Part shown: in pieces, positions 6,201-53,760 of the stretch
Position numbering within the stretch: position 1 is the stretch's first letter
How the letters are laid out: each line of letters starts with the position of its first letter
IMG/VR virus record: IMGVR_UViG_3300022932_000015
Coordinates: 1-64,000 of that record
Reading direction: 5' to 3' (one strand)
Origin: a virus
Length of the DNA: 64,000 bases
Position numbers and translations under genes: made by a program
The notes under the pieces: model-generated
Databases searched by the model: none
Told to the model about the DNA's origin: nothing
The model's input: only the letters and a program-made list of their open reading frames with translations

Positions 6201-9200
6201 ATAGAAGCATACATCCAGATGATTATACAGCTATGGCTATTGCAGCTTATCTTAATGAATCAGGAAATCAATCTACTCAAGGATTAAGTACTGCAATTTA
6301 CACACCTATAGTACCTTCTGAGAAAACTCAAGCATTCCTAAACCAAGGACCTAAATACTTAGGATTCATAATTAATGAAAATGGAGTATTAGAAGAGACT
6401 TCTGATACACAAAGATTTAATAAGATCTTCTGGTTAGAAGCAGATAGAATAAAAAGAGCAAATAAAGATAGAGATTTATATAATTCTGAAACAGAATTGA
6501 TTAATCAAGGTAGATTAGATAAAAGAACTTTTAATCCTAATCCAAATTATCATGGTAAAAATTTTAATGGTAATGCTTACAAATTCAGTATATTAAATTA
6601 TTCTAAGGCTTTAGATCCGAAAGGAGATTTATATAATGCAATATTTAATGAATTCAATAATTCTGAATTGGATGCTTCTCAGTTTTTTGGAGATTCTAGA
6701 AAATTTGTAAAAGAAATAAATGCTGAAATACTTACAATACTAAATAACAAATATAAAAACCAACTAGATAGTCTTATTGATTCTGGTATAATAAAAACTT
6801 CTTCAGAAGGATTGTTAACTTCTAATGTAATAGATCTAGCTTCTTATAATCCTCTTCAGCAAATAAGTGAAGATTCTAAATTAAAAAATCTAGTTGCAGA
6901 ATTCACACTAAACACTAGTTTGTTTAATATAGAATACTCATTGTTAATGAATGGGGATCCTGCTTATTACAAGGACAAGAGTGATTGGGCTAAAAGGTTT
7001 TATCAATCACAAGCTGAAACTAGTAGCTATGACTCTAGTGATTTTGAAGATGGTAGGATACAAATAATGGCTTTCAATGATATTGAAGAGTCTTTAAATA
7101 AAGATTCTTATAATGATATTATTGAAATGACCAAAGATTTGCCTAATAATGCTACTACTAAATCTATTCTAGACTCTGATTATTCAGAATCTAATAGTAT
7201 TAATGTAGCTGATGCCCAGTTTTATGTCAGTGATGATTTATATGCAAAGTTATTGAAATCTCAAGGTAAGACTACGTTTGAAATATCAAAAGCTTTAGCA
7301 ATAGGTAATGGTAGTACTCAGGGTATTAATTCTAGAGATTATCATCAACAATTATCTATTCTTAAAACATTCACTTATGGAGTTCAATGGAATGACAATA
7401 CAGCTAGATATGAACCTATACAGATTAAGTGTGCCGTATTACCACTTACACCATCATTAGTAGCAGACAATCCTTTATTAAAAAAGAGTTTGGATAGGAT
7501 GAAAGCTAATCCAGATGGTCCACAAGCAATGGCATTTAAATCTACTTTCAAAGCTTTACAACCAAGCTATCAAAATATTGAGGATGTAGAGAATTTTGAT
7601 ATAAGCAAGGTTGTTAATTTAGAGGTTGAGAATATGGGTCTTCAAGTTGATAATCCTAACCATGGGTTAGACGGAGAGAATAGTTCAACTAGACAATTAA
7701 AAATGTTATTCTATGGTATGTTAGATAATGAAACTTCTTATAATGGAGTTTTAGGAAAAGATATTAAGTATGAGTTACAACAATTAGAGTCTAAGAATAA
7801 CTTAGAGTCTTTAAATAAATTACTAGATCTTTTTAACAGAAAAGATGAAAGATTACTTAGAATGATTCAAGAAGCAGCTACTAAGAGAAATGCTACTTCA
7901 ATTGTTCAGAAGGTATTTGATATTGATCCAAATACTGGTGATTTTAGATACCCTCTTGATACTCTACCAACTAGACAAACTATAGAATTACTTTCAAGTA
8001 TATTCACTAAGAATGTAGTTTTACAAGAATTTAGAGGTGGTGCTATGGTTCAAGCCTCAGCTTTAGGTTTTCAATTCAAATCTGAATTTAGTAATCTTGA
8101 GGAACAACAAGCATTGGTAGAAGGAACTAAGGAGTTATCTGATATACAAACAAGTTTAAAATGGATAAGGAAGGAAGATGATACTAAAATAGATTATATT
8201 GAAGTAGCTCTTCCATATTACTATTCTGATTTTTTAGATAATAACGGTCAATTTAAAAAAGATATTCCTGAGGAATTATTAAGGATAATTGGTTATAGGA
8301 TTCCTACAGAAGGAGCTCACTCAATGTTACCACTTAAGGTAGTAAAATTCTTACCTAAAGAATATGGTAATGTCATTTTGTTACCTTATGAAATTACCAA
8401 GCAGATGGGAGCTGACTTTGACTTTGATAAGATTTATTTCTTATCAAGAGAATATTATATGAAAGGTAAAGCTTTAGAAGTATATAAATATTCTACAAAC
8501 CCAGAAAATACTGATTTAAGATATGAACAATATATTAACAGTGTATTAAATGAGAACAAGGAAGCTTTAAAAGTTAAGAGAGATGCTAGAGAAGATGCTA
8601 AAGCAGTTAATAAATTAGCTAGAGAAGCTGGAGAAGAGGAATATAAGTATACATTCCAAGATGATATTAATCTATTAGTAGATGAAGGATATATTATTTC
8701 TAGAGAAGATTTTAACAATCTTGGTATTGAAGACCAATTAACTAAAGAAGCTAGGAATAATAGAATCTTAGATTTATATACAGCTGTGTTGAGAGATGTT
8801 AATACATTAAACTCACTTATTGCTCCTTCTGGTCCTGGAGATATCTCATTAGTTTATAATGAGGTAGCTAAATATAAAACCAAAGAAACTCAAGATTATT
8901 TTAGTTTCTTAGGACAATTAGGAATTAAAAAATTATTTGATGACATTATAGGTTTAAAAGGTCAATCAGCACTAAAAGTTACAGGACACTCATTTGTTAG
9001 TTTAGGAAACTTAATAGCAAATGAAAATCCATTTTCTTATAGAGAAGGTGAGAATGTAACTAGTGTTTCTAGCCTGTCTCAGACAGAAAGTAGACAAGGT
9101 AATAAAATAGTTGAAGAATTATCTTCTATGATGGCTGCTATTTTAGATGCCGTTAAAACACCAACAATGCTACCATACTTAAATATATCTTCAAAAACTA

Positions 9201-11080
9201 TTAATATATGGTCTACAATAGTTAGATTTGGTATGGGGACTAAAGTAGCTTCAGAATTCACTGCACAGGAATCTGTAGGTATAATATCAGAAAGATTGAT
9301 GTCTAATGATAAACAAATAAAAGATGGTAATCAATTTAATAACAAAGTAGTAGATGAAGTATTTGATTTATACAAATCTAAATTCTTAGCTATTTATAAT
9401 AATTATGATCCAGGAGACATATCATTACAATTATTTGGTAGATCTTTTAGTGATACTAAAACCTTAAATAATTTATTAAATTCTACCGTAGTTGATTTGG
9501 ATAAATTAACTATTTATACAGGTAAATCTGAAGATGTAGTTAGAAAAGAATTAAAGGATGAGAAGCTATTATTAGATTTTTATCTTACTCAAATGAATGT
9601 AGTTAAATCCTTCCAGAACCTTGAAAGCTTATCTAAGAAATTACAGCAAGTTGACAGTATATTTGGATTGAATAAAGAGGTTGGCCCTACTTTTGAAACA
9701 ACTAATGGTAAACAAGAGGTAATAAGTGAAGTTAATACCTATGAGGCAGATGAGGATGGATCTGGAGTATTTATAGGTATCCAGGATCTTCTTCAGGAAC
9801 CTATTATTAACTCATACATTAATATCAATACTGAATTCTTTAATCAACTAAACGACAGGTTTGGGTTTGCGAATGAATACTATAATTCAATAAAAAGATA
9901 TATTGCAAAAAATCTAAATGTTAAAAATGATAGAGGATTAACAGGATTAAAGCCTAAGGATAGAGACTCAATTAATTCATTTATAACAACATATTTAGAT
10001 GCATATTCAACAATGGCTGATAGCTATAATACTTCATCTGATGAATCAGGCTTCACTGATACTGAGTTAGTAGATGAAATCACCAAATTGAAATCTCCAA
10101 AATTTGATGAAAAATATGAATGGAAGATATTTGGTGGTAAAACTATTAAACAATCTACAAAAAGAATGTTTGAAGAGTCTTCTTTAATGCAACATCTTAA
10201 AACTAGAATTCTAGATAATTCTAATATAAAGGTAATATCTCTAAAAGGTAATAGACTTGAATTGTCTCAAAAAGAAAAGATTATTGCTGATATTAACAAA
10301 CTCTATAAAAACCCAAACAGTAAAGGCTTAATAGAAGGTTTAGTAAATCATAGTTTTAAATATTCAGGCTTTTATACAGGACTAGATAGCTATCATAGTT
10401 TAATTGATCCTGAGATTTTACAAGAAATGGGATTTGTTAAGAATAGACAGATATTAAAAGAAATTATCAATTCAAATAGTGATAATACAATTAAAAGTGA
10501 TATATTTGTAGGTAGATTAATTGATCAACTTATCAGAAATAATGTGAAGCTAACAAAAACATTTGACTTGGATTTAGTAAAAGGAGATTCTTTGTTTATT
10601 AAAACAAGCGATGGATTCAGAGTAAATTATGAAACTACACATCCTAGGAGTACTGAGTTATTTAAATTAGATGATAATGGAGAATATATTTTAAATGAAT
10701 ATATTAGAATATATTTAGATGATAAAGCACAAGGATTTAAAGGTAGTAAATTGTTTAAGCTAGAAGGTAATGTTTATAAAGAAACTAGTAAGTTGGGAAT
10801 ACCAGGACATTTGGTTGAGATAAATCCATTCTTTGATTTACAAAAATCAACCTATCAACCAAATAACTATACTAAGTTTGGTACAGTAGTTAAAGAATTA
10901 ACTCCATCAGAAGAACAAGTAGTAGAAGGAGAGAACAATGAAGCTAATGAAATTAAAGATGAGTATAGTAGCATGACTTCTGATGATATGGATATATTAA
11001 ACCAACAATCATCAGACATAATTAATCCAGATAATATTACTCCTGATGAGGAGTTACCAGATAATATAAAACCTTGTTAA
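272..11080 (+). CDS. Giant virion RNA polymerase polyprotein with zinc-peptidase motif
   Basis: A 3,602-residue protein, the size and position expected for the giant virion protein of crAss-like phages. Residues near 2715-2719 read DFDFD, preceded by GA and followed by KIYF. This fits the DxDxD catalytic motif of the crAss-type DNA-dependent RNA polymerase, which is related to eukaryotic RNAi polymerases. Near residue 1357 an HEAFH motif (HExxH zincin), with a downstream acidic helix (EEKLADSFADY), suggests a metallopeptidase that may process the polyprotein. The N-terminal third holds a Gly/Ala-rich hydrophobic stretch (about residues 165-200) and long coiled-coil, Glu-rich parts. In relatives this protein is packaged and ejected with the DNA to transcribe early genes. 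Both motifs are seen; the division of labour along the chain is inferred. Confidence 0.85.
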   Translation: MPVNPKKLSSLSERLGETSTTLTTDLLKNRLAESNTYVGNIAPTYGESQYDESAPVPSVLEGSLEDYRGEVQTRLDKMANAVPRLLSKVGTEIAKTPGYVYALGESGLTDKTLAESLDNAWLNNLDKFDQSVKKQFEIYKPKSVREGNIWDNLTSTSFWTDEGVDGAGFLLSMIAPGAALKATGIAGKLAKLPVLSKIGASNIELGQATLLNTSLESAAEAKGIVDNLKEQFNGLLNPDSPTYNPINPKTGETWTKEEVNNAIGEAGVSTFQMNMGLLLVPNIIMNKNLLGRFNNSKTILDEFKDATGKFVTTNPIVKKSLVKEYSKGIGEAALSEGFLEEAGQTTIENYNKKVALNQTNGEVLTGLASEYLETLASTEGQKAILLGSVLGSLGGATGKSRQLKQDNITRSKLTDLINDNFEGFSVSMDNIIDKDEQGNVIIDPETNSPKINVNEATKVVSNLVKEQQSTNLQDLEALKGNKDLYDYIFNQQLSRFAIPYLQQEGGEEILNQHIDNLSKDLTKANQNNFQENEFKGQIKSQIKDLKSVYTGLVDTINNLPLEQLSNNYELVGKFSDKLLNTAYQESSKQLFLTKKIKELSNQLLSIRATAQENVSQFNIEAEKLTNRIESLNQSLEISKENYNAIFDPEQQKAAFEDFSVQEEENEPEVKQEVPIPETSEPVEETPTYTQNSELDNEVKQAKTKEDLDSIFDKYFDETNGEELENILTSRNKVIDEQNSHLVGVDQVNSVIESLNKEDHEAELRDIKSNLESIKNLTSYDNYDTSFKQTLEDTLGRVNNVLDDVVSEDDNIVNEASNNTISLIIQNQDIESTNPLGLQDSIQNVKSFSTKVYNTVMMKLFESKYSKGKGLQFVKNNEGEAVKTSTTISMVVNNPNIVKKGDVISFEITTLEGDQNLDNEANIAISKEIINRDTDDLYSVADKEFGKYYRESIAIRHKDSNEIIGFVALPHALSEVSEDTIESKQARLDIRNQLIAQRKRIIDLLNNNEVVETTIFDKGPGKLLLKSDKDGIPIMSSIISRNQDLIDGRDIYVVDKGYDLSGNIEGFGIPNKEDFVKASDRLAINELFSKLSGRTFSDTSGNNKGRVFKAVKNSNNTWSLIPVYATSIGAEKAEKIIKKLKTFVSQVGGVYTPNLKAIYSELGKDVYITNTDKRGVLKIDNFKINGKQWGALFNNPSFEKELLDNISKAKNNIITQLLNTDNGIKDILETNAYQEDGEYFVQPYIEFTGIQTTNVVETQEIIEEKPINSTEKLSNDKLDLPEDVLGLDILDEEVFTSKSTKGKLNRKNITEFLETNLPGITLADQDLVSQVKPYVKDAVGMFYRSTIYLFKDSTNNTAYHEAFHGVFRNILSVDERSAVIHQAKAYYSAPSIEELNNLSYTITPETRAKLTEKQLTDALKQLYYEEKLADSFADYTELVQEKTLGDKIKDFFRKLFRIFNLFKRYNEDQITSLFDSINTGKYSERSKTTQFDRAITSELLNPAYKKPDNIPISEFLDRSKSIEDVFYYRLNQQLELGLTMEKIRIGDIFNSIRQDYRSKAIEFNKVGEKYKSAVSTNVYNNWDSYVEQVIANLQKRKIKIKVKDNNEIESLDTNGIPDTTNNVENMDIENVEVGINKSYGQEMTAISGIRSAGDKLKLFLSALPILEDNRIKTDAYGFEQFYDYERIYYQLEIYLLEKPTFEEQYDEIKYLATYKPEMYQVLKALDTLKGESGEQIKKQFRTNFYKQQLKFKLVLFEKSRADGKYSFKIVDSNRKDIKRSITSDWTNNLIDPSRTKENLVRFENSEYKLDQDKIKKLVTEFENTALTEDYAFNTLYRLGIEFKREDFSKVYKSNEGIISTNIKNYLNSLASKEVTRKGREAFEWFVNQQVVFNQSLFTQSFNNTENSIVYSIQNNSFSSRLVNKLTKGNNSGFINDLKRDPIYKYLSMLEAPYIAKSLRTFAIDGLKDGVGENIGKKYRSIHPDDYTAMAIAAYLNESGNQSTQGLSTAIYTPIVPSEKTQAFLNQGPKYLGFIINENGVLEETSDTQRFNKIFWLEADRIKRANKDRDLYNSETELINQGRLDKRTFNPNPNYHGKNFNGNAYKFSILNYSKALDPKGDLYNAIFNEFNNSELDASQFFGDSRKFVKEINAEILTILNNKYKNQLDSLIDSGIIKTSSEGLLTSNVIDLASYNPLQQISEDSKLKNLVAEFTLNTSLFNIEYSLLMNGDPAYYKDKSDWAKRFYQSQAETSSYDSSDFEDGRIQIMAFNDIEESLNKDSYNDIIEMTKDLPNNATTKSILDSDYSESNSINVADAQFYVSDDLYAKLLKSQGKTTFEISKALAIGNGSTQGINSRDYHQQLSILKTFTYGVQWNDNTARYEPIQIKCAVLPLTPSLVADNPLLKKSLDRMKANPDGPQAMAFKSTFKALQPSYQNIEDVENFDISKVVNLEVENMGLQVDNPNHGLDGENSSTRQLKMLFYGMLDNETSYNGVLGKDIKYELQQLESKNNLESLNKLLDLFNRKDERLLRMIQEAATKRNATSIVQKVFDIDPNTGDFRYPLDTLPTRQTIELLSSIFTKNVVLQEFRGGAMVQASALGFQFKSEFSNLEEQQALVEGTKELSDIQTSLKWIRKEDDTKIDYIEVALPYYYSDFLDNNGQFKKDIPEELLRIIGYRIPTEGAHSMLPLKVVKFLPKEYGNVILLPYEITKQMGADFDFDKIYFLSREYYMKGKALEVYKYSTNPENTDLRYEQYINSVLNENKEALKVKRDAREDAKAVNKLAREAGEEEYKYTFQDDINLLVDEGYIISREDFNNLGIEDQLTKEARNNRILDLYTAVLRDVNTLNSLIAPSGPGDISLVYNEVAKYKTKETQDYFSFLGQLGIKKLFDDIIGLKGQSALKVTGHSFVSLGNLIANENPFSYREGENVTSVSSLSQTESRQGNKIVEELSSMMAAILDAVKTPTMLPYLNISSKTINIWSTIVRFGMGTKVASEFTAQESVGIISERLMSNDKQIKDGNQFNNKVVDEVFDLYKSKFLAIYNNYDPGDISLQLFGRSFSDTKTLNNLLNSTVVDLDKLTIYTGKSEDVVRKELKDEKLLLDFYLTQMNVVKSFQNLESLSKKLQQVDSIFGLNKEVGPTFETTNGKQEVISEVNTYEADEDGSGVFIGIQDLLQEPIINSYININTEFFNQLNDRFGFANEYYNSIKRYIAKNLNVKNDRGLTGLKPKDRDSINSFITTYLDAYSTMADSYNTSSDESGFTDTELVDEITKLKSPKFDEKYEWKIFGGKTIKQSTKRMFEESSLMQHLKTRILDNSNIKVISLKGNRLELSQKEKIIADINKLYKNPNSKGLIEGLVNHSFKYSGFYTGLDSYHSLIDPEILQEMGFVKNRQILKEIINSNSDNTIKSDIFVGRLIDQLIRNNVKLTKTFDLDLVKGDSLFIKTSDGFRVNYETTHPRSTELFKLDDNGEYILNEYIRIYLDDKAQGFKGSKLFKLEGNVYKETSKLGIPGHLVEINPFFDLQKSTYQPNNYTKFGTVVKELTPSEEQVVEGENNEANEIKDEYSSMTSDDMDILNQQSSDIINPDNITPDEELPDNIKPC

Positions 11081-14956: not shown

Positions 14957-15583
14957 TTACCAATTTATTTTTACTTCCAGTAATTTGTTGGCTTCATTAA
15001 AACAATCTCTATAATTCCAAGTTCTTTTCTGATAACTTGCAGCTACAGGATGTTCACATTCTAAAATTTTGCTATTTTTTATAATAGCTTTAAAGCTTTG
15101 AGCATCTTTTCCCCATAACATAAATATTATACCTTTCTTATCAAGCTCTTCAATAGTTCTAACTATAAAGCTTTCCCACCCCATTCCTCTATGACTACCA
15201 CTTTTTCCTGAATCTACTGTTAAAACAGAATTGAGAAGCATAACACCCTGTTCTGTCCAAGGAGTTAAGTTAGTCTTAAGATCTTTTCCTAAGGCTTCTC
15301 TAAGTTTAACAATTGTAGGAGTAACTTTCCCTGAAGTAGAGAAAGCTAAACCATGAGCTTCACTAGGATTTATATATGGATCTTGTCCTATAATACAAAT
15401 CTTAACCCTACTATAAGGAGTAAATTTATAAGCGTTAAACACGTCAGTACTTGCTGGATAAACAGTATTCTTAGTTCTTCTTTCTTGAATAAAAGCACTT
15501 AACTTTGACATATAAGGTTTAGTGAATTCATCTTTTAAAATAGAATACCATTCCTTACCTAAATATTCGCTTAGTCTATTCAT
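14957..15583 (-). CDS. ung: Uracil-DNA glycosylase, family 1
   Basis: A 208-residue protein with the family 1 signature GQDPY (Asp68 would activate water, Tyr70 would exclude thymine), LLNSVLTV around Asn118 (uracil recognition) and a late HP motif (His178), where the canonical HPSPLS is changed to HPVAAS. It removes uracil from DNA to start base excision repair, or keeps phage DNA free of uracil. Length is normal for the family. It ends beside the zinc-ribbon gene and begins 2 nt from the phosphatase gene upstream, so it is part of the same leftward operon. Confidence 0.92.
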   Translation of the reverse strand: MNRLSEYLGKEWYSILKDEFTKPYMSKLSAFIQERRTKNTVYPASTDVFNAYKFTPYSRVKICIIGQDPYINPSEAHGLAFSTSGKVTPTIVKLREALGKDLKTNLTPWTEQGVMLLNSVLTVDSGKSGSHRGMGWESFIVRTIEELDKKGIIFMLWGKDAQSFKAIIKNSKILECEHPVAASYQKRTWNYRDCFNEANKLLEVKINW

Positions 15584-15585
15584 AA

Positions 15586-16215
15586 TTAGTTTGTTTTCTC
15601 ATTGTGATGGTCAACTATTTTGACAGGAATTTTGGACATTATCTGCATAATCTCATCTATATGATAAGGAAATAAATTATTAGTATCAACTCCAACATCC
15701 ATAGATCTACCTAATCCTGGTAGTGTATTATGAGAATGACCATATAGATGTATAATACCATGGTGAGATTGATTCCAAACTCTATGACTATAGTGTGATA
15801 AAAAGAACTTCTGTTTACCTACAACTCCAAATTTTCTATCAACATTAACAGAAATTTGTTTCACATAATTACAACTTGCAAATAATCCTCTATAAGGACT
15901 ATCAGAAGGCTCAATATGTTGATCGTGATTACCAAATATCAAATGAATTTCTCTACAGTTTATTTGATCTCTAAATCTTTTAATGTTCTCATGTCCTCCA
16001 AAAGACCAATCTCCTAAGTGATATAAAATATCATCAGATTTAACTACACTATTTATACTCTTTAATAAGGCATAGTTGTGTTCCTCTAGAGTGTCAAAAT
16101 CTCTAGTACTTTGATGAGATCCAGTAAGATCCCATCCAGAAGTACCTCTAACTATATTCTTATGTCCAAAATGGGTATCACTAGTGAACCATATATTTCT
16201 TTTGGTCTGATCCAT
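15586..16215 (-). CDS. Calcineurin-like metallophosphatase
   Basis: A 209-residue protein with the metal-binding series of this fold: SDTHFGH near the N terminus, GDW, GNHD and a C-terminal YGHSH. The set is intact, so an active two-metal phosphoesterase is likely. Proteins of this type act on cyclic phosphates, nucleotides or phosphate ends of RNA. Its neighbours upstream are an RlaP-like nucleotidyltransferase, a polynucleotide kinase and an RNA ligase, so RNA end processing is a reasonable guess. It overlaps the upstream gene by 35 nt. Confidence 0.85.
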   Translation of the reverse strand: MDQTKRNIWFTSDTHFGHKNIVRGTSGWDLTGSHQSTRDFDTLEEHNYALLKSINSVVKSDDILYHLGDWSFGGHENIKRFRDQINCREIHLIFGNHDQHIEPSDSPYRGLFASCNYVKQISVNVDRKFGVVGKQKFFLSHYSHRVWNQSHHGIIHLYGHSHNTLPGLGRSMDVGVDTNNLFPYHIDEIMQIMSKIPVKIVDHHNEKTN

Positions 16216-19199: not shown

Positions 19200-19230
19200 T
19201 TATTATGTTTAATATTTATATTTAGTTAGT

Positions 19231-19301
19231 GTTCCCTACAGGATCTGAACCTGTGACCTTCACGTTATGAGCGTGTTGCTCTACCACTGAGCTAAGAGAA
19301 C
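19231..19301 (-). tRNA. tRNA-Met (anticodon CAT)
   Basis: The complement folds as a cloverleaf: acceptor GTTCTCT with AGGGAAC, D-arm GCTC/GAGC, anticodon loop CTCATAA on a CACG/CGTG stem (outermost pair A-A mismatched) and T-arm ACAGG/CCTGT with loop TTCAGAT. CCA is not encoded. Anticodon CAT could serve Met, or Ile if lysidinylated. The roughly 180 nt between the tRNA and the next gene show nothing I can name. Confidence 0.9.
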
Positions 19302-49967: not shown

Positions 49968-50453
49968 TTAACCAATCTTCTTTTTCTTTCTAATGTCAGA
50001 GATAACTTGTCTTCTTACATTGTATAATTCACATATAGACTTTATAGTCTTGTGTGGATTGTTTTCAATATCTTTCAAGACTTTTTCTATCAATTCAGTA
50101 GAATACTTTTTGTTTACTGGAATATTACCCTTCTTGAATTTGTATGATTCCATATTCATAAGTGGTAGTCTGCCTTTTTTGTAGGCATCTTTCATGTTAT
50201 CAGAATGTGTACCTAAAAATAGATGTTTAGGATTAACACATAAAGGATTATCACATTTATGACAGACAAATACATTTGAATCATTTATTTCACCATACTT
50301 AAGTATATATGATAATCTGTGACTATCAATTATTCTTTTCTGATATCTTATAACTCCATAATTACCTCTCATTCCTGCTTTCCATTCCCAACAATCTTCA
50401 TCATTATTAGTTACTCTTACTTTACTCCAGAATCTTTCGATTATAGTACTCAT
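49968..50453 (-). CDS. HNH endonuclease (homing type)
   Basis: A protein of about 161 residues from ATG at 50453 (MSTIIERFWSKV), the usual start of this family. Core: CWEWKAGMRGNYGVIR, SHRLSYILKYG, VFVCHKCDNPLCVNPKHLFLG and a C-terminal helix-turn-helix-like tail (TIKSICELYNVRRQVISDI). An upstream ATG at 50507 would add 18 residues and is less likely. It sits between non-coding fragments just downstream of the DGR. Confidence 0.85.
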   Translation of the reverse strand: MSTIIERFWSKVRVTNNDEDCWEWKAGMRGNYGVIRYQKRIIDSHRLSYILKYGEINDSNVFVCHKCDNPLCVNPKHLFLGTHSDNMKDAYKKGRLPLMNMESYKFKKGNIPVNKKYSTELIEKVLKDIENNPHKTIKSICELYNVRRQVISDIRKKKKIG

Positions 50454-50632
50454 TTGTTTTAATTTGTGGAGCTGGACAGGTACGATCTGTCGTGTTCCAT
50501 AATTCATTATTAATTTTCTACAAGTTTAGCATATCTTTTTCTCCTAATGCAGGATATTTGATTCTTAATCAAAAAAGCAACACATTGGCTAGTTATAGTC
50601 TTCCTATGTGTGAAGTGGTTGACTTTCCAATA

Positions 50633-50800
50633 TTAGGCTGCTAACTCTAATTCTGCAATTGGGGCAGATGTCAATTTAATGACTTTTGCTGAAGCGCTTT
50701 TTACAACTGCAAGAACATCAGCGATGCCTCCTACTTCGTTGGTTATTACAACATTGTCCGTTAGAACTTGAAACCATAGATTAAAGTGATAGATAACATC
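50633..50800 (-). pseudogene. Coding-like fragment without start codon
   Basis: A 55-codon open frame bounded upstream by TAG TGA, with no ATG. It encodes segments such as VVITNEVGGIADVLAVVKSA and SAPIAELELAA, with higher GC than the surroundings. It looks like the C-terminal end of an otherwise lost gene. The flanking 50508-50632 and 50801-50964 hold nothing I can name. Confidence 0.4.
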
Positions 50801-50964
50801 TCACTACTTGCTTATCAATAAATTATTACAGAGTCTATAGCCAACTCTCAGCCCCAATTCTTTATACTTTACTTTAATCCCTTTTTACAATTAAGATACT
50901 AAGGATTGTTTAAAGAATTTATTTTTTACTATGTTAGTATAGTTAATATTATGTGTATTAAAAT

Positions 50965-51027
50965 ATAAGTAACTTGACTATTAGAATTGTAGTTGTTGTA
51001 ATTCGAGTTGTTGAACACTAAACTACT
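50965..51027 (-). repeat. DGR template repeat 2 (TR2)
   Basis: 63 nt aligning without gaps to 51113-51175 with 15 mismatches. At every mismatch this copy has T on the plus strand, that is A on the coding strand. It is rich in AAY codons when read in the frame of the target. It starts 13 nt beyond the stop of target 2. This is the expected signature of a DGR template. Confidence 0.93.
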
Positions 51028-51040
51028 AGAAGTTATAATA

Positions 51041-51490
51041 TTAACGTTGAATGATTTTGTATAAATGAGCATAATTCTTACCTACAAAATCAGAGGTTTT
51101 CTGATCTTTGAAATAAGCAACCTGACCAATAGAACAGTAGCTGCTGTAATCCGAGCTGAGGAACACCAAACCACCTTTTTTATCATTCTCATGATAAGGA
51201 TACCATTTCTGTTGGTCATGATCAGTCCAATCTAAGATCCAATCTTCATTAAAGAATTTTTGTACTTGTTTTAATTGAGCAACTGCTACATGAAATTCTA
51301 TCTCTTCTGGTGTGAATAAATTAGAAAAGTGCTCTGATTTTACTTCATATTCTTTCAAAGCTCTACATATACTTGGATAATCAGCTCCTATTTTGAATAA
51401 ATCTGCGGGAGCATTTACTACCTTTTCTAGTTCCATTATTGTTGCTTTTAGCTCATTGATTTTTTCCTGAGCTTTCTTTTTATCTGTCAT
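51041..51490 (-). CDS. DGR target protein 2 (variable C-terminal region)
   Basis: A 149-residue protein. A helical N-terminal part is followed by KWYPYHENDKKGGLVF, a variable segment and FVGKNYAHLYK, a plan of Bacteroidota phage target proteins. Residues encoded by 51113-51175 differ from the template only where the template has A: for instance Asn codons become Leu, Ser, Asp, Cys and Ile. ATGA overlap with the reverse transcriptase gene couples the two. Ligand unknown. No signal peptide and not near tail genes. Confidence 0.88.
   Translation of the reverse strand: MTDKKKAQEKINELKATIMELEKVVNAPADLFKIGADYPSICRALKEYEVKSEHFSNLFTPEEIEFHVAVAQLKQVQKFFNEDWILDWTDHDQQKWYPYHENDKKGGLVFLSSDYSSYCSIGQVAYFKDQKTSDFVGKNYAHLYKIIQR
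51089..51105. repeat. Inverted repeat beyond VR2
   Basis: A 6-bp stem (ATCAGA/TCTGAT) with a 5-nt loop, 7 nt beyond the template-matching end of VR2 and inside the target gene. DGRs often have a hairpin just past the variable repeat that directs retrohoming. Confidence 0.5.
51113..51175 (-). repeat. DGR variable repeat 2 (VR2)
   Basis: Variable partner of TR2 inside target gene 2 (15 of 63 positions differ, all at template A on the coding strand). It encodes the residues from GGLVFL to VAY. Confidence 0.93.
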
Positions 51491-52434
51491 AAGTATTTAT
51501 TTTTTAAGTTTATACTATTACAATGAGATAACCATCCATTGTAGCTTGCTATTGATTTTTTATTATTATTTTTCCTGATCATTCTTATAAATCTTAGTTT
51601 TATACTCTTTCTCAGTAAAATATGTGTATGATAAGATTTATATCCAAGGAAATCTATTCCTCTAGATTTTACAGGAAATATTTGATAATTTGATTTTATT
51701 TTAAGTTTCAAATTTACATTTAGATATTGCTCTATCAAATGTAATATTCTGTGTAATTCTTGTTTATTGCTTCCCAATATAACTAAATCATCACAATATC
51801 TAAAATAGTATTTTACTTTTAAAGTTTCTTTAATCCAATGATCAAAATAGCTTAAATAAAAATTAGCAAAATATTGAGATAGATAATTTCCAATAGGTTG
51901 TCCTTTACAACTATCTATTATATTACTCAATAAACTCAGTAGATTTTTATCTTTAAATTTCTTGAGTAATAATTCTTTTAAAATATCGTTATCAATGTTT
52001 GGGTAGAACTTTTTGATATCTAATTTTAAGCAGTATTGAGTCTCCTCTTTGTTTTTTAATGCTTTATTTAGAGAATTTAGACCTTTGTGTATACCTCTAT
52101 TCTTTATACAGTTATAAGTATCTTTAGTAAATGTTGATACAAATATAGGTTCTAAAATATTCATTATAGCATGATGTACTATTCTATCTGGGTAATAGGG
52201 TAACTTATATATTTCCCTTTCTTTTGGATCAAAAATTGTGAATATTTTGTATTCTGACGTGTTATAGTTATTGTTTAATAGTATTTGATTTAAATTTAAT
52301 ATATTATTATCATAGTTCTTGTCAAATTCTATTACGTCTTTATTTTTAGATTTACCAATTCTAGCCTTTTTATCGGCTAGTATTAAATTATCTATATCAC
52401 AAATTTTATTATATAAGTTACCTATTCGTTTCAT
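51487..52434 (-). CDS. DGR reverse transcriptase
   Basis: A 315-residue reverse transcriptase: KLDIKKFYPNID (motif with Asp139), IGNYLSQ (181-187), the form seen in DGR enzymes in place of QGxxxSP, and YCDD (213-216) as the catalytic pair. It has no RNase H or maturase domain. It would copy TR RNA with errors at adenines and deliver the cDNA to the variable repeats. It lies between two target/template cassettes, 98 nt after TR1, and overlaps target 2 by 4 nt. No Avd-type accessory gene is evident. Confidence 0.95.
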   Translation of the reverse strand: MKRIGNLYNKICDIDNLILADKKARIGKSKNKDVIEFDKNYDNNILNLNQILLNNNYNTSEYKIFTIFDPKEREIYKLPYYPDRIVHHAIMNILEPIFVSTFTKDTYNCIKNRGIHKGLNSLNKALKNKEETQYCLKLDIKKFYPNIDNDILKELLLKKFKDKNLLSLLSNIIDSCKGQPIGNYLSQYFANFYLSYFDHWIKETLKVKYYFRYCDDLVILGSNKQELHRILHLIEQYLNVNLKLKIKSNYQIFPVKSRGIDFLGYKSYHTHILLRKSIKLRFIRMIRKNNNKKSIASYNGWLSHCNSINLKNKYL

Positions 52435-52532
52435 CTTATACTTCTTAAGTCTCTTTCAATAGTTTACTAAAGACTCTTTAAGTTTGTTATCTTTTACCCA
52501 GTGGTATGGTTAATACTAATTAGTCTAAAATA

Positions 52533-52592
52533 TAATAAGTAGAGTAGTTAGAATTGACATTATAGTTGTTCACGTTATTCAGTACCTAACTA
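52533..52592 (-). repeat. DGR template repeat 1 (TR1)
   Basis: 60 nt aligning to 52681-52740 (constant offset 148) with 15 mismatches, all at coding-strand A. Read in the target frame it contains many AAY codons and one TAG, at the codon that is TGG (Trp) in the variable copy. It begins 12 nt past the stop of target 1, the same arrangement as TR2. Confidence 0.93.
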
Positions 52593-52604
52593 AAACATTT
52601 AGTA

Positions 52605-52958
52605 TTAACCTAAATATGAATTGTATAATTTTATAAGCTCATTTGCCATCACTCTTGCTGTATCTTCTTTCTTATAATAGTAAGAAGCAGAGAAGTGAGA
52701 AGTGACACAATAGCTGTACACGCTACCCAGCACCCAACCATCTTCTTTAGAAAATCTAAAATATGGTAGATACTTATATTCATTACCATTGTTAAAGTCT
52801 GGTTCCCATATTTTGTCATCATTATCTAGATAGTTTTTTGCTTTGATTATCGTCTCTAAACTGTAAGATATCCAATCTTTCTTCCTTCTAAATTGATGTT
52901 CTACATATCTTTGATGACCAACTTTAAATAATATTTTCTCAGCTTCTTCTAAACTCAT
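52605..52958 (-). CDS. DGR target protein 1 (variable C-terminal region)
   Basis: A 117-residue protein. YKYLPYFRFSKEDGW is followed by the variable stretch and a C-terminal MANELIKLYNSYL, the same plan as target 2, and the two templates also resemble each other when translated. The cassettes thus look like diverged duplicates. Template Asn codons have become Gly, Ser, Tyr, Cys, Thr and His. A 6-bp hairpin (52669-52686) overlaps the end of the variable repeat. Confidence 0.88.
   Translation of the reverse strand: MSLEEAEKILFKVGHQRYVEHQFRRKKDWISYSLETIIKAKNYLDNDDKIWEPDFNNGNEYKYLPYFRFSKEDGWVLGSVYSYCVTSHFSASYYYKKEDTARVMANELIKLYNSYLG
52681..52740 (-). repeat. DGR variable repeat 1 (VR1)
   Basis: Variable partner of TR1 within target gene 1. 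All 15 differences from TR1 are at template adenines of the coding strand. Confidence 0.93.
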
Positions 52959-53651: not shown

Positions 53652-53690
53652 ACTGAAAGTAAGCTTAGATAAGCTTTACTTCTTTGTTGA

Positions 53691-53760
53691 TGCTCTACTA
53701 GGACTCGAACCTAGATTAATTCCCGAGAGGAATTCTCCTATCCAGTTAGAGGATAGAGCA
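53691..53760 (-). tRNA. tRNA-Glu (anticodon CTC)
   Basis: The complement folds with acceptor TGCTCTA/TAGAGCA, anticodon stem AATTC/GAATT around loop CTCTCGG (anticodon CTC) and T-arm CTAGG/CCTAG with loop TTCGAGT. The D-arm is compressed (no clear base 26). CCA is not encoded. It does not have a CTA anticodon, so it is not an amber suppressor. Confidence 0.8.

Follow-up and report, generated by a model that had tools for sequence, protein, structure and literature searches.

Diversity-generating retroelements (DGRs) with several template repeats (TRs), DGRs of crAss-like phages and DGR targets outside structural proteins have each been reported before. The Zeta crAss-like phages Lera and ct1yV3 carry several TR-VR pairs (PMC12386605), the DGR of Quimbyvirus has a target outside the structural module (PMC8008677), and in the two-target DGRs with tentaclins a single TR serves both targets (PMC10743442). 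In BPP-1, recruitment of the RT-Avd complex and priming of cDNA synthesis have been attributed to the spacer (PMC12875486), for which reason the spacer behind each TR matters. A large survey found annotated VR regions to be systematically of C-type lectin type and mainly involved in attachment, and left uncharacterised VR domains open (PMC8144416); the family of the targets described here, phrog_11581, may already be represented there by one of the target clusters left without a name. In this study, we examined a viral locus in which one reverse transcriptase (RT) lies between two target-template cassettes. From its sequence, we read this element as a DGR in which both cassettes probably work, and give that reading a probability of roughly 0.8.

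The stretch of DNA analysed, hereafter the window, comprises bases 1-64000 of the 94,209-base viral contig IMGVR_UViG_3300022932_000015. By its capsid, portal and terminase, the phage is a member of the Crassvirales: the major capsid protein matches PF23898 (E 8e-127) and is 35-39% identical to those of named crAss phages, and portal and terminase were assigned via PHROGs, the window contig being the one member of the dual-cassette group described below in which these hallmark genes were searched. The structural genes (terminase, portal, capsid) lie on the plus strand, and the minus strand carries DNA polymerase A, primase and other replication genes. The DGR sits within this minus-strand replication block, distant from the plus-strand terminase, portal and capsid. 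The first-pass annotation, made from the letters and their open reading frames, had put the targets in an early leftward region rather than among tail genes; their position outside the tail module stands, and gene content suggests that the region would be transcribed early. A tRNA-Glu gene (53689-53760) lies just upstream of the DGR, and a tRNA-Met gene (19229-19301) is found elsewhere on the minus strand. There is also a startless open stretch of 40-odd codons (50638-50770, minus strand), which lies between TR1 and an HNH endonuclease gene (49968-50507) and could represent an exon or a fragment of a gene.

All parts of the DGR are on the minus strand, where the order from 5′ to 3′ is target 2, TR2, RT, target 1 and TR1. 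Target 2 (52605..52958) is a phrog_11581-like small protein of 117 aa, with VR2 (52681..52740) starting at about residue 74, and is followed by TR2 (52533..52592) and the RT gene (51487..52434; 315 aa). Target 1 (51041..51490; 149 aa, likewise phrog_11581-like), whose ATG overlaps the RT stop, contains VR1 (51111..51174) and is followed by TR1 (50963..51026). Both VRs thus lie inside coding genes and both TRs past the stops of those genes, at gaps of 12 and 14 nt. The arrangement first proposed, with a single RT amid two targets and their two templates, is therefore borne out by coordinates and by TR-VR matching, including a separate template for each target, with the correction that the gaps had been given as 12-13 nt.

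Both TR-VR pairs carry the signature of adenine-directed mutagenesis. Pair 1 aligns over 64 nt with 24 template adenines, and pair 2 over 60 nt with 22; each has 15 mismatches, all 15 of them at a template adenine (P = 8e-9 and P = 3e-9, respectively). The expectation of adenine-only differences was thus confirmed on alignment, with zero mismatches at non-adenine template positions in either pair. In both, the VR lies upstream of the TR at an offset of exactly 148 bp. In a search of the full 94,209-base contig on both strands, each TR matched only itself and its own VR, with no further VR of TR1 or TR2 elsewhere; neither VR can therefore be derived from the other TR, and the layout differs from one in which a single TR serves two targets. 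In the VR frame, AAY codons are abundant in both TRs, which is the usual DGR design for spreading amino acids without creating stops; TR2 in this frame contains a stop. The TR-VR alignments show no obvious GC-rich tract at the 3′ end.

The RT matches RVT_1 and PHROG 1423, and its motif IGNYLSQ, which is accompanied by YCDD, fits the DGR-lineage motif (I/V/L)GxxxSQ. It is 34% identical to the bRT of BPP-1, and its best sequence match among solved structures (PDB) is an RT of 328 residues (E 4e-47), which we took to be the BPP-1 enzyme because Brt is also 328 residues long by its record coordinates. By this identity, the PDB match and the motif, the window RT is placed with the DGR RTs. Searches of the window contig for Avd gave no bAvd or 23S_rRNA_IVP match, and the controls of that search likewise gave no signal. 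In a Bacteroidetes-type relative (L007), a gene of about 98 aa (phrog_19665; 8950-9243) overlaps the RT stop and has equivalents in 152 loci of this type. Such a gene after the RT is present in those 152 loci and absent from the dual-cassette group, and we consider it a candidate accessory factor.

The TRs are embedded in a structured RNA. RNAalifold, run on 38 TR regions of relatives, gave a consensus in which the TR is enclosed by a stem of 12 bp and accompanied by a 3′ hairpin. In this stem 98.4% of cells are paired, and 97 cells are double-changed as against 29 in shuffles (0 of 500 shuffles as high); when one partner is slid, pairing falls to 31-42.3%. In the window, the stem closing TR2 is formed by GGTTAATACTAA (52599..52610), which overlaps the target 2 stop codon, and TTAGTATTAACC (52508..52519), with a shuffle frequency of 0.002; that closing TR1 is formed by GTTAATATTAT (51035..51045), overlapping the target 1 stop codon, and ATAATATTAAC (50942..50952), with a shuffle frequency of 0.024. 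The two stems are unlike in sequence and both are intact. Scanned in the same way, BPP-1 gave no significant TR-closing stem. A covariance model trained on relatives only, for which E-values are rough, ranked TR2 first in the 94-kb contig (whole module 52480..52623, E 2.5e-4) and TR1 second (50912..51059, E 0.003), the next hit having an E-value of 3.7. The TR1 module has the 3′ hairpin and an A-run, with no RT behind it. Between TR2 and the RT, the spacer RNA (52428..52511) resembles Rfam RT-17 at 35.6 bits (E 1.4e-4), below the gathering score of 40.4, and the spacer behind the TR of L007 passes that score at 44.9 bits; the TR1 spacer, searched with RT-17, gave no match. Aligned spacers have a TTAGTA-type motif in common. 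In a further dual-cassette locus, L080, an RT-17-like spacer stands behind both TRs and an RT behind only one of them. We infer that the duplicated unit is a complete template RNA gene.

The two targets belong together as well. A profile built from relatives outside the dual-cassette group recovered target 1 (E = 7e-19) and target 2 (E = 3e-11) and none of 100 shuffled decoys; the two are thus homologous, at a direct identity of only 17%. The likeness noticed at first between targets, and between templates, thus stands for the proteins; the templates are not alike by direct alignment, and what they have in common is their RNA architecture. With homologous targets and one RT, the idea of diverged duplicates sharing one enzyme has held up, and the duplication is old and common to a phage group rather than recent.

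Among target-family members, 89 of 94 belong to phrog_11581, a family for which Pfam and NCBIfam returned nothing consistent. Neither target has a direct homologue among annotated phages or a match to the PADLOC defence models, and a single-protein scan of genome collections returned one Chryseobacterium locus only. The structure model of target 1 (pLDDT 91, pTM 0.78) consists of helices and one beta-hairpin that holds the VR, with VR1 covering approximately residues 106-127, that is, the second hairpin strand and the following loop. Target 1 has no PDB sequence match, its best fold match in the PDB reaches only E 0.4, and a viral library returned unnamed phage proteins, several of them from crAss-like viruses. 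This fold, which is a prediction, is evidence against a C-type lectin. For target 2 the model was poor, its VR region too poor to interpret.

We examined 173 RT loci, some of which represent the same contig fetched twice. Most RT relatives from IMG/VR have at least two neighbouring small ORFs that match the target profile, and those of Bacteroidetes type have two tandem targets that normally share one TR beside the RT. Targets lie upstream of the RT only in 143 of the 173 loci. A target directly downstream is found in the window, L004, L066, L080 and L085, in all of which targets flank the RT on both sides; a second template is visible in three of these five (window, L080, L085), the contigs of L004 and L066 ending before a second TR could be read. 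RTs with a downstream target cluster together (93/93; 92% of bootstraps) in a tree with a long L085 branch and a bootstrap that had yet to converge fully. The dual-cassette layout, suspected from the outset to be unusual, is so in that it is confined to one RT group among the 173 loci, and less so in that multi-template DGRs of crAss-like phages were already on record (PMC12386605).

Genes next to the relatives' cassettes, in the loci checked, include an exonuclease, an Erf-like ssDNA annealing protein, a helicase and a DnaC-like loader, and L004 and L066 have replication genes similar to those of the window. Non-structural placement among recombination and replication genes therefore seems to be a trait of the family and not of this phage alone. 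Two other arrangements were seen. In L081 (4670-5179 and 6351-7875), one RT lies beside two different TR-VR pairs, one of which serves a long target and the other a phrog_11581-type target. In L016, two distant phrog_11581 targets (2334-2771 and 15075-15641) have VRs that match the TR beside the RT, which implies that a template can reach across about 9 kb.

Comparison of VRs between related genomes, which the first-pass annotation had suggested, revealed VR-specific variation. The alignment of L005 with L006 covers 2,662 bases and contains 11 differences, every one of them in the VR opposite a TR adenine; L115 and L114 have 12 differences, 9 of them in the VR at a TR adenine, and L138 and L153 have 13, with 12 such sites. 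Because VR sites opposite TR adenines account for nearly all differences within these near-identical pairs, the target family is actively diversifying. For the window phage, an exact TR pattern search of IMG/VR, which may omit near records, found no close relative. L084 and L085 are the same phage from different samples and are identical over 12 kb, VRs included, an identity that neither proves nor disproves activity. In L004, L066 and L080, the contig stops within or close to the VR or target region of one cassette, as would be expected if assembly breaks at variable sites, an observation that is only suggestive.

We propose that two template RNA modules, complete in themselves, share one RT, each module comprising a closing stem around the TR, then the 3′ hairpin, then an RT-17-like spacer that is clear for TR2 and weak for TR1. 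By analogy with BPP-1, the RT would read each TR, miscopying adenines, and the cDNA would take the place of the corresponding VR, which lies 148 bp upstream and ends the neighbouring target gene; this cDNA route and current activity in the window phage we infer. The surface so varied is predicted to be a beta-hairpin strand and loop, and the targets would most likely be early non-virion binding proteins with a varying partner inside the host cell. This role in infection is drawn from position and general DGR logic only. The further step of naming the partner as a defence or other host factor is, taken by itself, conceivable at somewhat under even odds. More tentative again, and on balance doubtful, is the broadest view, in which phrog_11581 would comprise widespread early intracellular phage proteins with a non-lectin VR scaffold, hypermutated to track changing host factors, and the crAss-like group would run two of them from two portable template RNAs with one RT.

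Three other explanations have to be weighed. The targets could be virion or host-attachment proteins, as most phage DGR targets are; surveys place most of them there (PMC8144416), and other crAss-like DGRs target tail genes. Nevertheless, the proteins of the window are short (117-149 aa) and have no lectin-tipped fibre architecture, they are encoded on the replication-gene strand, opposite the structural block, and those of the relatives lie in recombination and replication modules, so that we regard an attachment role as unlikely. Less probable still is that the TR2 cassette beside the RT alone is live and TR1-VR1 a disused duplicate. Such disuse would fit a TR1 spacer that RT-17 does not match and a covariance score lower than that of TR2; however, the absence of any non-adenine mismatch over 64 nt between TR1 and VR1 means that no drift has accumulated, the closing stem is intact even with a sequence different from that of TR2, and L080 and L085 likewise retain a second template. 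Finally, assembly might have duplicated a single cassette, given that repeats can cause misassembly and that the contigs of three relatives stop inside a cassette or close to one. This is practically excluded by the strong divergence between the two TRs and between the two targets, and the same layout is found again in independent phages.

What seems most worth following is the likely non-lectin scaffold, the placement of the target family in replication modules and the portability of the template RNA. A confident non-lectin model, together with placement among replication genes, challenges the picture of DGR VRs as lectins for attachment (PMC8144416). Complete stem-TR-stem-spacer modules are found repeatedly at a distance from the RT, which suggests that a DGR template RNA can function independently and bears on how DGRs gain targets.

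Set against known systems, the window element is like BPP-1 in its homologous RT (the 34% identity given above), its adenine-only TR-VR differences and a TR that lies next to the RT and has a structured spacer. It is unlike BPP-1 in having two TRs, two targets that are not tail proteins, short VRs of about 60 nt and no Avd recognised by a search whose controls were equally silent. Lera and ct1yV3 are also crAss-like phages with multiple TR-VR pairs, but have Avd, tail-fibre targets with lectin domains, and extra pairs with non-adenine changes (PMC12386605), whereas both pairs of the window are clean and its targets small non-structural proteins. In Quimbyvirus, unlike in the window, both targets are C-type lectins, one structural and the other in a defence-related island (PMC8008677). 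Tentaclin DGRs match the window in having two targets per RT, but both are C-type lectins and there is one TR. The Bacteroidetes-type phage DGRs (L005-L077), with RTs about 60-66% identical to that of the window, have in common with it the phrog_11581 targets, the TR stem and, in L007, the RT-17 spacer; they differ in having two tandem upstream targets, a single TR and the phrog_19665 gene of about 98 aa after the RT. The mechanism is thus a known one, present here in an uncommon variant that is set apart by its layout, the family of its target proteins and its matching template-RNA fold.
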